A stretch of 47,990 nt of DNA from Oscillospiraceae bacterium (lineage in GTDB: Bacteria; Bacillota; Clostridia; Oscillospirales; Oscillospiraceae). Location: the NCBI GenBank assembly GCA_015067525.1, contig SVMH01000011.1:1-47990 (forward strand). Reading direction: 5' to 3'. Positions 36,260 through 45,105 of the stretch are shown here, one piece after another (the first letter of the stretch is position 1; each line of letters begins with the position of its first letter). The notes under the pieces were generated by a model that was given only the letters and a program-made list of their open reading frames with translations, made no database searches and was not told where the DNA came from. Made by a program: the position numbers and the translations under genes.

Positions 36260-37408
36260 TCAGCGCAGCTCCTCAGCCAGCGCCTCCAGCTGCGTCATGC
36301 TCTTGTCATTGAGGGCAGAGAGGATAGTGACGTTATTTTCGGTGTAGGTCAGCGCCTTGCTCTTTTCCAGCAGGCCCCGCATCACCCGGATGGCGGCGGG
36401 CGCCCAGCTGCCGTTTTCGATCATGGCCACGGTGCGCTTCGTGTAGCCCCGCTCGGTCAGGTGGTGGATGAAGGTGTGCATAAAGGGGAAGATGCCGCCG
36501 TTGTAGGTGGTGGTAGCCAGCACCAGCTTGCTGTAGCGGAAGGCATCCTCCACCGCCTCAAACATGTCGCAGCGGGCCAGGTCGTGGAGCACCACGGTGC
36601 AGCCGTTTGCGCGCAGCTTTTCGGCCAGCAGCTTCACGGCGCGCTCGGTGTTGCCGTAAATGGAGGTGTAGGCGATGACCACGCCCTCTTCCTCAGGTTC
36701 GTAGGAGGACCAGATGCGGTAGAGGTTCAGGCAGTAGTCCACGTTTTCCTGCAGTACTGGGCCGTGGAGGGAGCAGATGGCAGCGATGTCCAGTTCTGCT
36801 ACCTTTTTCAGCAGTGTCTGGGTGGGTCCGCCGTACTTGCCCACGATGCCGAAGTAATAGCGCCGCGCCTCGCAGGTCCATTCCTCGTCCACGTCCAGCG
36901 CGCCGAACTTGCCGAAAGCGTCGGCGGAGAAGAGGACGCGGTCAAAGCTGTCGTAGGTGACGATGACCTCAGGCCAGTGGACCATGGCGGCGGTATAGAA
37001 GGTCAGCTCATGGCGTCCCAGCTGCAGCTTGCTGCCCTCGGCCACCGTGATGTGGTCTGCCGCCAGATCTGCGCCGTAGAAGTTGCGGATCATCACGAAG
37101 GCCCGCTGGGAGGCGACCAGAACAGCGTCGGGGAAAGCTTCCAGAAAGCGCAGGATGCTGCCGGAGTGATCCGGTTCCATGTGCTGTACGATGAGATAGT
37201 CGGGGGTGCGGCCCTTCAGGGCGGTGCGGATATTGTTCAGCCATTCATCGGCAAAACCGGCCTCCACCGAGTCCATAATGGCGATCTTTTCGTCCACGAT
37301 GGCGTAGGAGTTATAGGCCATGCCGTTCGGTACGGGGTATTGGCTCTCAAAAAGATCGATCTCGTGGTCGTTGACGCCTACATACAAAATATCTTTGGTA
37401 ATGCTCAT
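36260..37408 (-). CDS. Flavodiiron protein (FprA/Flv type)
   Basis: The 382-residue enzyme reduces O2 or NO with electrons from rubredoxin or flavin. The N-terminal metallo-beta-lactamase-like domain has the di-iron motif H76-x-E78-x-D80-H81 and later ligands in AAMVHWPE, SADAFGKF and SLHGPV. The C-terminal flavodoxin domain starts near residue 250 with the FMN loop YTSIYGNT and GSWAPAA. It protects anaerobes against oxygen. The gene is monocistronic. Confidence 0.95.
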   Translation of the reverse strand: MSITKDILYVGVNDHEIDLFESQYPVPNGMAYNSYAIVDEKIAIMDSVEAGFADEWLNNIRTALKGRTPDYLIVQHMEPDHSGSILRFLEAFPDAVLVASQRAFVMIRNFYGADLAADHITVAEGSKLQLGRHELTFYTAAMVHWPEVIVTYDSFDRVLFSADAFGKFGALDVDEEWTCEARRYYFGIVGKYGGPTQTLLKKVAELDIAAICSLHGPVLQENVDYCLNLYRIWSSYEPEEEGVVIAYTSIYGNTERAVKLLAEKLRANGCTVVLHDLARCDMFEAVEDAFRYSKLVLATTTYNGGIFPFMHTFIHHLTERGYTKRTVAMIENGSWAPAAIRVMRGLLEKSKALTYTENNVTILSALNDKSMTQLEALAEELR

Positions 37409-37691: not shown

Positions 37692-38810
37692 TTACATAAA
37701 GAACTTGAGGATCAGACCGCCTGCGATGACCGAGGCGATCTGGCCGGAGACGTTGACGCCGATGGAGTGCATCAAAAGGAAGTTCTGGGGATCCTCCTGC
37801 AGGCCCATCTTGTGCACGATGCGGCCGGACATGGGGAAGGCGGAGATGCCTGCCGCGCCGATCATGGGGTTGATCTTGGTCTTGAGGAACAGGTTGAGGA
37901 ACTTGGCAAACAGCACGCCGCCGGCGGTGTCAAAGATGAAGGCCACCAGGCCCAGACCCAGGATCAGCAGTGTCTCCTTCCGGAGGAAGTTCTCCGCCTG
38001 CATCTGGGAGGCGATGGTGATGCCCAGGAAGATGGTGATGAGGTTGGCCAGCACCTTCTGGGCCGTTTCGGACAGGGAGTTCAGCACGCCGCACTCGCGG
38101 ATCAGGTTGCCGAACATCAAAAAGCCGATGAGGCTGACAGAGGCGGGGGCGATCAGACCGGTGATGACGGTGATGATGATGGGGAAGAGGATCTTGGTGA
38201 TCTTCTTGACCTCCTTGGGCTGATAGGGCATGCGGATCATGCGCTCTTTCTTGGTGGTCAGCAGGCGGATGATGGGCGGCTGGATGATGGGCACCAGCGC
38301 CATATAGGAGTAGGCGGCTACCATGATGGCGCCCAGATACTTGCTGCCCAGCTTCAGTGCCACCACGATGGAGGTGGGGCCGTCGGCGGCACCGATGATG
38401 GCGATGGAGGCGGCGTCGTTGATGTCAAAGAACATGGAGGCAAGGCACAGCGTAAAGAAAATGCCGAACTGGGCCGCCGCGCCGAAGATCATCAGCTTGG
38501 GGTTGGTCAGCAGCGGGCCAAAGTCGATCATGGCGCCGATGCCGATGAAGAGGATCAGGGGGAACAGCTCATTGGAAATGCCGGCGTCAAAGAGGACGCT
38601 CAGCGCGCCGTGCTCGGCCACACCGTCCACGATCTGGGTGACGGCGCCGGAATTGGGCAGGTTGACCATGATGGCGCCAAAGCCGATGGGCAGCAGCAGC
38701 GTGGGCTCCATGTCCTTGGCGATGGCCAGATAGATCAGAAGTCCGCCGATGGCCCACATGATGACCATGGGCAGCGTCAGGTCTAAAAAGTTTTCGTACA
38801 GGATCTCCAT
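37692..38810 (-). CDS. Na+-translocating decarboxylase beta subunit (OadB/GcdB/MmdB family)
   Basis: The 372-residue membrane protein is the sodium-channel subunit of biotin-dependent decarboxylase pumps. It couples decarboxylation of oxaloacetate, methylmalonyl-CoA or glutaconyl-CoA to Na+ export. The family stretches GFGAIMVNLPNSG, FIGIGAMIDFGPLL, AADGPTSIVVALKL and GISAFPMSGRIVHKMG are present. Which acid is used cannot be told because no alpha or biotin subunit is in view. AAAGGAGAG precedes the start. Expression should depend on the structured leader upstream. Confidence 0.93.
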   Translation of the reverse strand: MEILYENFLDLTLPMVIMWAIGGLLIYLAIAKDMEPTLLLPIGFGAIMVNLPNSGAVTQIVDGVAEHGALSVLFDAGISNELFPLILFIGIGAMIDFGPLLTNPKLMIFGAAAQFGIFFTLCLASMFFDINDAASIAIIGAADGPTSIVVALKLGSKYLGAIMVAAYSYMALVPIIQPPIIRLLTTKKERMIRMPYQPKEVKKITKILFPIIITVITGLIAPASVSLIGFLMFGNLIRECGVLNSLSETAQKVLANLITIFLGITIASQMQAENFLRKETLLILGLGLVAFIFDTAGGVLFAKFLNLFLKTKINPMIGAAGISAFPMSGRIVHKMGLQEDPQNFLLMHSIGVNVSGQIASVIAGGLILKFFM

Positions 38811-38858
38811 ACATTCTCTCCTTTATCGTTTTGGGGGATGTGCTCTTTATTTTGCCGC

Positions 38859-38898
38859 AAAAAAAGACTCTTATTGCACCTGCAGCGCAATAAGAGTC
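38859..38898 (-). terminator. Intrinsic terminator in the oadB leader
   Basis: On the minus strand a 12-bp perfect stem (38898-38887 with 38877-38866) followed by T7. It lies between the aptamer-like region and the oadB start, and its 5' arm contains the CTCTT that closes the aptamer stem P1. Confidence 0.88.
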
Positions 38899-38974
38899 TC
38901 GCTTTTTCAGGCAGGGGCGGGCTTTCGCCGTCGTGACGCCCTGTGCCGCGGCATGCCGCAAGCTACTCCCTCTT
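38892..38974 (-). promoter_or_regulatory. Riboswitch-like leader (yybP-ykoY type) of oadB
   Basis: On the minus strand AAGAG pairs with CTCTT (38974-38970 with 38896-38892) to form P1, enclosing GGAGTAGC on the 5' side and GCGAGA on the 3' side. These are the conserved loop sequences of yybP-ykoY RNAs. Inside are a GCGGC-AT-GCCGC hairpin and a longer hairpin (GGCA, GGGCG, asymmetric bulge TCACGAC, GGC-GAAA-GCC). The usual fourth small hairpin before GCGAGA is missing. Binding that stabilises P1 would hide the 5' arm of the terminator and allow read-through (ON switch). Mn2+ is the known ligand of the class; given the gene, sodium or another ion should be considered. Confidence 0.62.
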
Positions 38975-38988
38975 GGATCGATGAATGC

Positions 38989-39017
38989 ATGATAACAGGA
39001 TTTGGCGGGAAATGCAA
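38989..39017 (-). promoter_or_regulatory. Sigma-A promoter of the oadB leader
   Basis: On the minus strand TTGCAT (39017-39012), 17 nt, TATCAT (38994-38989). Transcription would start near 38982, eight nt before the aptamer. Confidence 0.78.
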
Positions 39018-42145: not shown

Positions 42146-42243
42146 AAAGGAAAATCATGCCGAAAGACCGCGCCGGTGTGCGCGTTTTGCCCCGAAAAAA
42201 GAAACGCCGCATCCCGCGGGATGCAGACAGGAGAGGGAAGCGT

Positions 42244-45105
42244 ATGAAGATCCGCACCAAAAAGACACAGCTGAAAGCCAGCCGCATTTTTACCGACCGG
42301 GAAGAGCCCCGTGCCGCCTTCTGGCAGCAGTATCAGCGATTGCAGCAGGAGCTGGAGCAGGAGGAGGCCAATGTCCACGTACTGACCTACTACGGCATCG
42401 GCGGCATCGGCAAGAGCAGCCTTTTGAAGAAGATCATGGAGGAGATGGAGGAGCGGCTGGATGATCCGGCCTGCGTCTACTTCGACTTCAACCTGCAGCA
42501 GGAGTGCCGCGCCGTGCTGGAGGCGCTGAAGAATAAGCTCTCCGCCGAGTGCCAGTTTGAGTTCCCGCTCTATGAGCTGGGCGCCTATATCTACGCCAAG
42601 AAGATCGGCGAAAATCCCGACGCGCCCGAGGCCAAGCCGCTGCTGAAAAAGAGCCCCGCGCTGGAGCTTTTGCTGGGCATTGCCGGCGAGATCCCCGTGG
42701 TGGGCTCGGCCACCAAGATCCTGGATCTGGCGGAAAAGGGCGTGGCCGCCTTCCGCGGCTACCTGCAGGATCACCGCAAGGAGCTGCGCCAGATCGAATA
42801 TATGGAGGCAGAGGAACTGTATGCTTACCTGCCCACCCTCTTTGCCGAGGATATGACCCATGCGCTGGAAAAGAAGTCGGCGCCGCTGGTGATCTTGCTG
42901 GATACCTATGAGCGGCTGGTCAACGAGATGAGCGCCACCGGCGAGCCGCTGAGCAAGGACCTGTGGCTGCGCGGCGAGGACGGTCTGGTGCAGAACATCC
43001 CCGGCGTGCTGTGGGTCATCGCCGGCCGCGAAAAGCTGAAGTGGGTGCGCTTTGACACCGAGTGGGACGAGGCGCTGGAGCAGCATCTGCTGGGCAGCCT
43101 CTCTTCTCAGGACAGCGACCAGTTCCTGCTGGCCGCCGGTGTGGCGGACGCCGCGCTGCGCGAGGGTATCTACGGTCTGACTGCCGGTACGCCGGTGTAT
43201 CTGGACCTGTGCGTGGACCAGTACCGCCGTCTGGTGGAGCGGGACGTGGAGCCCAAGCTGGAGATGTTCGGCCGCGACACCTTTGAACTGATCGAGCGCT
43301 TTGCCCGCTATATGGACGACGCCCAGAAAGACATCGTCTATGTGCTCTCCTGCATGGGCCACTGGAACGACAGTGAGATCGCCGCCATCGCCCAGCCGGT
43401 GGTGCCGGGATTCAGCATCACCACGTATGAAAAGGTCAAGGGCCTTTCCTTTATCACCCAGTCCGACGACGGCGACTACAACATCCACCAGACGGTGGGT
43501 GAGGTGCTGCTGGAGTCCTGTCCGGCCCTGCTGCGCACCCGGACGGCGCAGGTGGCGCTGGAATACTTCTCCGGCGTGCTGCAGGAGGCGGGACTCATGG
43601 AGCCGCGCTACGCCGAGGCGCTGCGCTACTGCGTGCGGTTTTGCATCATGCTCCATGACGGGGATGACGACGCGCTGTGGGATGCCTGTGTGCAGTACAT
43701 CTGCGAGCCGCTGCGCCGTGTCTCCCTGAGCGGCGGCTTTGCGCAGGCGGAAAACGCCCTTGAGCCGCTGATCCGCCGCGCTGAGGAGCGGCCCGGCACC
43801 CGCTTTTACGGGAATATTTATGCCGAGTACTCCCGCGCTCTGCGGGCCAAGGGTGACTTTTTTGCTGCCCTTGCGGCCAGCGAAAAGGCGTGGAACTGCC
43901 TGTGCGCCTGTCTGGGCAAGGAGCACGAGGACACACTGCGGTGCGGATTTGTCCACACCTGCTCTTTGTGGGAGCTGGGCAGACACGATGAGATGATGGA
44001 ACTCGATACGTTTATTTACGAAACGAGTCTCAGACTGCTGGGAGAGGATCACCCGGATACCCTGACGGCGATGCGCGCTTTGGCATTGGATTACTCCAAT
44101 GTGGACAGGGACGATGAAGCACTGGAACTGAATACCCGGGCCATAGAAAAGATGCTGCGTGTCCACGGAACGGCCCATCGCGAGACGCTCATTGCCATGG
44201 CCAATCAGGTCAACTTCCTCAAGTATGTGGGCCGCACGGAAGAATCGCTGGAGATGGCCGACAAGGTGCTGGCTCTGCGCCGGGAGATCTACGGTGACAG
44301 TCATCCCGATACCCTCACCAGCATGGCCAACAAGGCCGGCACGCTGCGCTCCCTGAACCGCTATGAGGAGGCACTGGCTCTGCGCCGAACGATTTGGGAG
44401 AAGCGCGTAGAGGTGCTGGGTGAGCGGCATCCGCGTACGTTGGATTCGCTCTCTGCCATGGCGAACCTGCTTTATGACATGGACCGCTGCGACGAGACGC
44501 TGTCCATGTACCGTGAGGTCTACGCGGGCCGCTGCGAGGCATTGGGCGAAAAGCACGAGAAGACGCTGAATACGGCCAACGACATTGCCTATTGCCTGCG
44601 GGATCTGGGCCATCGGGAGGAAGCGGCGGAATATTTCCGCATTACGGTGGAAGGCCGCCGGGAGGTCTTAGGCCCCAGGCACAGTAAGACTTTGTGGAGC
44701 ATGAATGCCTGGGCCGGTGTTCTGTACGGTTTGGACCGTTACGACGAGGCGCTGCCCCTGTACGAGGAGGCCTATGCCGGTTTTTGCGAGACGAAAGGCC
44801 GTCTGGACGATAAAACGATCCGGGCAACCGAAGATCTGGCAGATTGCCTCCGGATGCTGAAGCGCAGGGAAGAGGCCCTGCCTCTGTACCGGGAGGCGTA
44901 CGAAGCCTGTCTGGAAGCAAAGGGTGAACACCATAAGACCACAGCCCGCATTGTCAACAGCCTGGCCTACTGCTGCAAGGCGCTGGGCCGTAAGGAGGAG
45001 ACGGAACAGTATTTCCGCGCCACGGCGGAAAGCTTCCGCGTGGTCTACGGCGAAAAGTCGCCCACTGCCCTGTGCGTTGAACGACTGGGCAGACGCTCTC
45101 TATGA
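42244..45105 (+). CDS. STAND-type NTPase with TPR repeats, N-terminal part of a frameshifted gene
   Basis: This frame codes for 953 residues. After a short basic start comes IFTDREEPRAAF, a lead-in typical of STAND NTPases. Walker A is GIGGIGKSS (51-59), a Walker B-like segment LVILLDTYE has D220, and AGRE at 260-263 resembles the sensor region. A helical arm and winged-helix-like part run to about 510. From there on are 42-residue TPR units (kinesin-light-chain type, LGxxHxxTL...YEEALPLY). No N-terminal effector domain is present. The frame ends at 45105 after an ERLGRRSL tail that does not fit the repeat. A 2-nt deletion at 45075-45081 explains this. ATG 42244 has GGAGAGGG upstream. Confidence 0.85.
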   Translation: MKIRTKKTQLKASRIFTDREEPRAAFWQQYQRLQQELEQEEANVHVLTYYGIGGIGKSSLLKKIMEEMEERLDDPACVYFDFNLQQECRAVLEALKNKLSAECQFEFPLYELGAYIYAKKIGENPDAPEAKPLLKKSPALELLLGIAGEIPVVGSATKILDLAEKGVAAFRGYLQDHRKELRQIEYMEAEELYAYLPTLFAEDMTHALEKKSAPLVILLDTYERLVNEMSATGEPLSKDLWLRGEDGLVQNIPGVLWVIAGREKLKWVRFDTEWDEALEQHLLGSLSSQDSDQFLLAAGVADAALREGIYGLTAGTPVYLDLCVDQYRRLVERDVEPKLEMFGRDTFELIERFARYMDDAQKDIVYVLSCMGHWNDSEIAAIAQPVVPGFSITTYEKVKGLSFITQSDDGDYNIHQTVGEVLLESCPALLRTRTAQVALEYFSGVLQEAGLMEPRYAEALRYCVRFCIMLHDGDDDALWDACVQYICEPLRRVSLSGGFAQAENALEPLIRRAEERPGTRFYGNIYAEYSRALRAKGDFFAALAASEKAWNCLCACLGKEHEDTLRCGFVHTCSLWELGRHDEMMELDTFIYETSLRLLGEDHPDTLTAMRALALDYSNVDRDDEALELNTRAIEKMLRVHGTAHRETLIAMANQVNFLKYVGRTEESLEMADKVLALRREIYGDSHPDTLTSMANKAGTLRSLNRYEEALALRRTIWEKRVEVLGERHPRTLDSLSAMANLLYDMDRCDETLSMYREVYAGRCEALGEKHEKTLNTANDIAYCLRDLGHREEAAEYFRITVEGRREVLGPRHSKTLWSMNAWAGVLYGLDRYDEALPLYEEAYAGFCETKGRLDDKTIRATEDLADCLRMLKRREEALPLYREAYEACLEAKGEHHKTTARIVNSLAYCCKALGRKEETEQYFRATAESFRVVYGEKSPTALCVERLGRRSL

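Follow-up and report, generated by a model that had tools for sequence, protein, structure and literature searches.

The window analysed here, a stretch of 47,990 nucleotides from an Oscillospiraceae bacterium, carries on its minus strand a structured leader (39017-38859) in front of a gene of the OadB family of sodium-pump subunits. An earlier note had read this leader as a yybP-ykoY-like riboswitch, and took the unusual gene and a missing fourth hairpin as hints that the RNA might respond to an ion other than Mn2+. Which ion does this RNA sense, and why is such a switch placed before oadB? The leader very probably works as a manganese sensor, a pared-down RNA switch that the Rfam cut-off misses. 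It belongs, as a variant without P4, to a known riboswitch class; what is new is the gene that it precedes, a second OadB paralog that stands alone.

Anatomy of the leader

All parts of the 83-nt element described in the earlier note (the P1 arms AAGAG/CTCTT, the L1 motifs, GTCA and a GAAA-capped hairpin) are found on the minus strand (Table 1). The L1 5' motif with its following bases, GGAGTA(GC), spans 38969-38962 and the 3' motif, (GC)GAGA, spans 38902-38897; GTCA of loop L3 lies at 38937-38934 and the GAAA-capped hairpin at 38929-38920. The element (38974-38892) begins about 8 bases past the expected transcription start. The promoter is only fair: the proposed hexamers (TTGCAT-17-TGtTATCAT) are present with a 17-nt spacer, matching at 3/6 and 5/6 positions, and a strict sigma-70 scan of the leader region lists no promoter. 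The terminator is as claimed, a perfect 12-bp stem (arms 38898-38887/38877-38866) followed by T7, with a fold energy of -24.0 kcal/mol (z -7.5; 0/200 shuffles as good). Its 5' arm takes in the entire 3' strand of P1, and P1 and the terminator are therefore mutually exclusive.

Without the full terminator, the 95-nt leader has a minimum-energy fold no better than that of shuffled sequences (z -0.06; 86/200 as good). Free-energy folding was set aside as proof of P1, since it returned a shifted register in place of the proposed helix, and covariation was used instead. Because the promoter fails the strict scan and the leader alone folds unremarkably, the case for the structure rests on comparison, and the pairing of P1 is proposed from covariation.

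Table 1. Features of the leader and of the regulated gene in the window, with two further R1-preceded genes of the same genome (R1, covariance model described in the text)
Feature	Position	Strand	Basis or remark
-35-like hexamer TTGCAT	39012..39017	-	3/6 to TTGACA
-10-like hexamer TATCAT, extended -10 (TGT before)	38989..38994	-	17-nt spacer from the -35-like hexamer; 5/6
Aptamer of P4-less yybP-ykoY type, presumed Mn2+ riboswitch	38892..38974	-	R1 match 38891-38975, 79.7 bits (one of the 20 R1 training sequences, so not an independent score)
P1 switch helix, 5' strand AAGAG	38970..38974	-	Helix 1 covariation: 3/5 pairs change on both sides, 96.8% of cells paired
P1 switch helix, 3' strand CTCTT	38892..38896	-	Common to the terminator 5' arm; covariation and sequence
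Loop L1, 5' side GGAGTA	38964..38969	-	Each position identical in 101 or 102/102 aligned matches
Loop L1, 3' side GAGA	38897..38900	-	AGA part: 101 or 102/102 at each position
P1.2, 5' strand GCTT, pairing with 38904-38901 (AAGC)	38960..38963	-	4/4 pairs change on both sides, 95.5% paired
P2 hairpin	38949..38958	-	4/4 pairs change on both sides, 97.2% paired
P3 arm and loop L3 (GTCACGAC, 38937-38930), with presumed Mn2+-contacting adenosine 38934	38911..38946	-	C and A of GTCA in 102/102; site spacing as in L. lactis
Intrinsic terminator, expression platform; stem 38898-38866, T7 38865-38859	38859..38898	-	Fold energy and sequence
Ribosome-binding site AAAGGAG	38818..38824	-	Sequence
Stand-alone OadB paralog, 372 aa, regulated gene	37692..38810	-	PF03977 504 bits; TIGR01109 426 bits; own clade
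mntP of the same genome	C76; gene match from 41889		R1 match C76:41585-41673
P-type cation ATPase of the same genome, 888 aa	C68		Behind R1 match (42.5 bits)

Relation to yybP-ykoY and SSRC10 RNAs

At gathering cut-offs, no Rfam family matches the window. The best Rfam match to the element is SSRC10 (RF02617), aligned over its full length (1-113) at 38859-38974 with 33.3 bits (E 7.8e-5), short of its gathering score of 56; this RNA of Streptococcus shares with the window element the P4-less layout, L1, L3, a CUGAAA joining stretch and the terminator. Searched over 197 genomes of the order, the SSRC10 model finds matches in 38 (E<=0.1). Among 30 loci from that search (window included), the 20 with the L1 motif were kept and the 10 without it were dropped. 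These 20 elements, which precede 11 oadB, 4 mntP and 3 P-type ATPase genes, 1 CaCA exchanger gene and 1 other gene, are the seed of a new model, R1. By its rough E-values, R1 has matches in 247 of 394 genomes of the order (E<=0.01) and in 105 of 398 genomes of the phylum (E<=0.001).

The comparison was made on 102 aligned R1 matches (100 distinct), in an alignment that is fitted to the model's own structure and so leans towards it. Paired cells amount to 92.7%, against 65.7% in shuffled and 25-47% in slid alignments. For covariation, the score of 0.712 compares with 0.225 in shuffles, and 0/500 shuffles reach a value as high. Changes on both sides occur in 21 of 23 pairs, a count to which shuffles come close (mean 19.4; 31/500 as high). 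Conservation is nearly complete in L1 (GGAGUA and AGA) and at C and A of L3, each identical in 101 or 102 of the 102 matches; the first G of the L1 3' side GAGA varies (64 G, 35 A, 3 C). By a simple test, P1 overlaps the terminator in 93 of 150 R1 leaders and in 0-10 of 150 shuffled controls; the overlap is present in 33/37 oadB leaders and in only 17/45 mntP leaders.

The search proposed for the leader with the yybP-ykoY model, RF00080, found nothing in the element at E-values up to 10. This model also finds nothing in the bacterium's own genome at E<=0.001 and nothing at E<=1 in the 20 R1 seed loci, and its gathering score (45 bits) is reached in none of 197 genomes from the order. Even the mntP riboswitch of E. 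coli stays beneath that cut-off, at 41.6 or 44.9 bits with RF00080. Twelve weak RF00080 matches (E<=0.01) occur in the 197 genomes, and R1 matches 11 of them on the same strand. In the E. coli K-12 mntP region, the single named control, R1 gives a weak match (14.2 bits, E 0.018 in 4.5 kb) that falls where RF00080 matches, and the mntP leader of the bacterium's own genome has an RF00080 match of 22.2 bits. Since R1 and RF00080 coincide at 11 of 12 places and at E. coli mntP, both describe one family. This homology, together with the covariation and the conservation of L1 and L3, upholds the yybP-ykoY-like reading of the earlier note.

Compared with known yybP-ykoY elements (E. coli mntP, L. lactis yoaB and X. 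oryzae yebN), the window element has the same L1 (GGAGUAGC...GCGAGA, identical in E. coli mntP), L3 GUCA with its invariant A, the presumed sensor as mapped by spacing, the same order of P1, P1.2, P2 and P3, and a P1 3' strand shared with an intrinsic terminator, as in transcriptional ON switches. It differs in scoring below the cut-off, in having a stand-alone OadB paralog as target and in lacking P4: where the solved aptamers form a four-way junction, the window has a short unpaired stretch and thus a three-way junction. The E. coli mntP element has a P4 hairpin. Given the absence of P4, the element is filed as a variant of yybP-ykoY and not as a plain member. By inspection, P4 is absent from all 20 R1 seed elements, four MntP leaders included, and the structure line of SSRC10 shows no such hairpin either. 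The lack of the fourth hairpin is thus normal for the group and does not indicate another ligand, contrary to what the earlier note had suggested.

Ligand, switching and regulated genes

The Mn2+ site of the L. lactis aptamer includes nucleotides U39, C40, A41, U44 and C45, according to excerpts of PMC9190785. In loop L3 of the window, G-U-C-A-C-G-A-C, the U, C, A and final C are spaced as in that site, and an A stands where L. lactis has U44. By spacing and sequence, A38934 is presumed to be the adenosine that contacts Mn2+; this A and the C of GTCA are kept in 102/102 aligned R1 matches. In X. oryzae, a change of the sensor A abolishes stabilization by Mn2+, and P1.1 is stabilized by Mn2+ against invasion by the terminator strand (excerpts of PMC6754395); the L. 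lactis switch is described as operating like that of X. oryzae (excerpts of PMC11087558). Because the window contains the same parts as these two switches as well as the overlap of P1 and terminator, the leader is most probably a Mn2+-sensing transcriptional ON riboswitch that acts by antitermination, in the form of a three-way-junction (P4-less) yybP-ykoY variant. Of the ON switch proposed in the earlier note, the anatomy is seen, and the switching we infer from the studied relatives. At low Mn2+, the 3' strand of P1 would be drawn into the terminator and transcription would end before oadB. Rising Mn2+ would bridge L1 and L3 (at adenosine 38934) and hold P1, so that RNA polymerase could read through into oadB.

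In the bacterium's own genome, R1 matches precede three genes: the window oadB, mntP and a gene for a P-type cation ATPase. This makes oadB one of three genes in a presumed Mn-overload regulon, and it runs against the earlier idea that the gene and the variant RNA point to another ligand. First genes were classified for the best 150 R1 matches of the order plus the match before the ATPase gene of the bacterium's own genome. The 150 comprise 48 MntP, 37 OadB, 28 P-type ATPase, 23 CaCA exchanger, 4 Na/Pi-type, 2 CitMHS, 1 PhoU_div and 7 other genes (3 of the 7 scanned against Pfam), the OadB share being inflated because 11 of the 20 training leaders of R1 came from oadB. The expectation that the same leader would recur before oadB in relatives was borne out, both by these 37 and by 30 of the best 80 titled OadB loci. 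In two loci (L136 and L170), one R1 match is followed by MntP and then by a P-type ATPase, an apparent export operon. The less classic genes encode Na/Pi-type (L071, L097, L138, L065) and CitMHS (L094, L118) products, which are membrane ion or anion transporters, as well as PhoU_div (L082), SPFH/Band 7 (L069) and TetR-like (L121, L132 and, by eye, L181) proteins.

By a simple pattern, L3 occurs in two types. Type A is found in 37/37 oadB leaders, 19/23 CaCA leaders and some ATPase leaders; type B, the E. coli/RF00080 form, is found in 45/48 mntP leaders, and the other 3 match both types. A descendant of yybP-ykoY now responding to a different ion (Na+, Li+ or Ca2+) would suit a sodium pump of the OadB family, and the split between type A before oadB and type B before mntP could be read in this way; Na+ riboswitches of the DUF1646 motif, which are ion switches too, are also reported to precede oxaloacetate decarboxylase genes occasionally (excerpts of PMC9337991). 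Such a change of ligand is nevertheless very improbable: in layout and nucleotides, type A agrees with the Mn2+-bound site of L. lactis (excerpts of PMC9190785), it also stands before CaCA and ATPase genes, and the site's C and A do not vary. The DUF1646 motif is a different RNA, and the search suggested by the earlier note does not find it among the 6 Rfam matches to the element up to E 10.

Even less credible is an independent small RNA in place of a cis switch. SSRC10, the best Rfam match, is filed as an sRNA, unlike the window element; it has a terminator and gave Northern signals, its authors discarded candidates directly upstream of open reading frames as likely riboswitches, and the strand wording may set it opposite its neighbor genes (excerpts of PMC3675131). 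It nonetheless lies between SPyM3_0439 and SPyM3_0440, a 'putative calcium transporter' gene, in the same excerpts, and the R1 element precedes a co-directional transporter gene across many genomes. A riboswitch in the OFF state would also yield a short terminated RNA. A study of 2019 by Martin et al. reportedly concerns, by its title, a Mn-sensing riboswitch before a Mn2+/Ca2+ ATPase in Streptococcus, and SSRC10 may be this riboswitch. The sRNA annotation of RF02617 may merit a check, as the family resembles a Mn riboswitch leader.

Several observations tell against a Mn2+ switch and are to be weighed with the rest: RF00080 finds neither the window element nor the seed loci (E<=1) and nothing over its cut-off in the order, P4 of the solved structures is absent, A38934 is equated with the Mn2+-contacting A by spacing and sequence, the count of both-side changes is near that of shuffles, few mntP leaders pass the overlap test, and 50 of the best 80 OadB relatives lack R1.

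The stand-alone OadB paralog

The earlier note had assigned the gene to a decarboxylase subunit of the OadB family. The family holds (PF03977 and TIGR01109; Pfam OAD_beta covers residues 16-371, and the residues of the Na+ site are present). The OAD beta subunit proper of this genome is a different gene, which lies on contig 73 with the alpha subunit and biotin carrier; at the window locus, oadB is encoded without these two partners. In a TIGR01109 search of 37 riboswitch-oadB genomes, 32 also have a canonical copy (468-535 bits), and the full-length riboswitch copies score 400-437 bits. A tree of 35 riboswitch and 30 canonical OadB proteins, in which two long rows were flagged, parts the two kinds at one branch (100/100), and R1 is found at 0/30 canonical loci.

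With Salmonella OAD as reference (excerpts of PMC7274780), the riboswitch OadB proteins keep E40, D203, S382, N412 and S419 (Salmonella numbering) in 35/35, and change T148I, G201A and V416Q in 35/35, R304 in 33/35 and N311 in 22/35. Like OAD beta of known structure (PDB 6iva, 6iww), the window protein has the OAD_beta domain and D203, S382 and N412 of the Na+ site; the riboswitch proteins differ in being a separate, stand-alone clade with G201A, T148I, V416Q and an added acid, D294. This acid (StOAD G353) is present in 80/80 titled relatives, against G 16, A 9 and S 5 in 30 canonical proteins. A loss of decarboxylase chemistry, considered from the changes at R304 and N311, is not claimed, because E40 is kept and these two positions also differ in relatives that adjoin OadA.

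The titled relatives are the best 80 of 571 OadB loci, mostly from metagenome-assembled genomes; one, which has R1 as well as this OadB, is Gemmiger formicilis ATCC 27749 (L275). R1 (E<=1) is found at 30 of them and lies directly upstream of oadB in 28 and likewise in L278, which is cut by a contig end; in L290 it precedes an mntP-oadB pair. At L280, oadB comes after a P-type ATPase gene. The clade thus also occurs apart from the Mn riboswitch, at 50 of the best 80 loci (range L220-L299). Some leaders of such loci, for instance those of L220 and L231, resemble other terminator-bearing leaders by eye and may hide another switch. A scan of 18 of these 50 loci at Rfam gathering cut-offs found no other riboswitch before oadB, and one group II intron far from the gene.

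Does this OadB work with a decarboxylase? It might be an alternative beta subunit that joins OadA and the biotin carrier, Mn2+ then inducing an extra decarboxylase Na+ pump. The conserved E40 and Na+-site residues are in keeping with this reading, as are the row riboswitch-oadB-oadA-BCCP in one genome (G033, completeness 76), which leaves room for a decarboxylase role, and 4 of the best 80 relatives in which oadB adjoins OadA and BCCP (L235, L238, L249 and L292). An OAD_gamma-like protein also adjoins OadB in L294 (25.4 bits, cut-off 27) and, by eye, in L285. The decarboxylase reading is possible, if rather doubtful, since OadA or BCCP is found at 0/30 R1-bearing titled loci (flanks up to 4 kb) and at 0/20 further riboswitch-oadB loci (0.9 to 4.7 kb downstream, with less than 3 kb left by contig ends in four), G033 being the exception. 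The changes at T148, G201 and V416 and, with the same reservation as above, at R304 and N311 also argue against it. In a search of 8 genomes for OadA and the biotinyl domain, G132 (completeness 100, 40 contigs) has the stand-alone kind as its sole OadB besides a 29.5-bit fragment; its one OadA match is partial (28.9 bits), and biotin/lipoyl domains are absent at E<=1e-5. Likewise, G040 (completeness 99) has only the stand-alone OadB and lacks a full OadA, with two partial matches, one of 24.6 bits and one of 43.9 bits at the single biotinyl protein of the genome. As both genomes are nearly complete, they suggest that this OadB works alone, and from this search it can apparently exist without a decarboxylase.

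Thus, although we are less sure of the protein than of the RNA, the edge is given to an ion transporter that works alone, in cation export or on an accompanying ion gradient, over a beta subunit of a decarboxylase. A more specific proposal is made tentatively: the clade may consist of unrecognized exporters of Mn2+ (or another divalent cation), in which the transport core has been freed from decarboxylation and bears the acid D294 besides D143, switched on by Mn2+ through the P4-less riboswitch to assist or replace MntP and P-type ATPases.

The neighborhood of the gene in the window was noted as well. A flavodiiron/FprA-like protein (36260-37408, minus strand; best NCBIfam 172 bits, below cut-off) lies downstream of oadB on the same strand. 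On the other side, a long Sel1-repeat-like protein (39073 to about 41820, minus strand) adjoins, by eye, a divergent 982-aa protein (42157-45105, plus strand) that looks, by eye and from the list of open reading frames, like a P-loop/TPR protein of the STAND type.

As far as searches of open-licence papers show, a stand-alone OadB is not described as a riboswitch target. The only open-licence paper that brings yybP-ykoY together with oxaloacetate decarboxylase is that on the Na+ riboswitch (PMC9337991), and none of the open-licence matches listed pairs this enzyme with manganese terms. This type of switch, probably for Mn2+ and common in the order, has remained under the Rfam family cut-off, and R1 would help to correct the filing of its nearest Rfam entry as an sRNA. 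The regulon of the switch marks genes that cells want at high Mn2+. Because the switch recurs in relatives before the same stand-alone gene, this oadB is a candidate new player in the handling of excess manganese; it is often found in the regulon beside known and likely Mn2+ exporters, which makes the function of OadB a sharp and cheap test. The stand-alone OadB could turn out to be a new fold among bacterial Mn2+ exporters, or reveal a Na+-pump arm of manganese stress.
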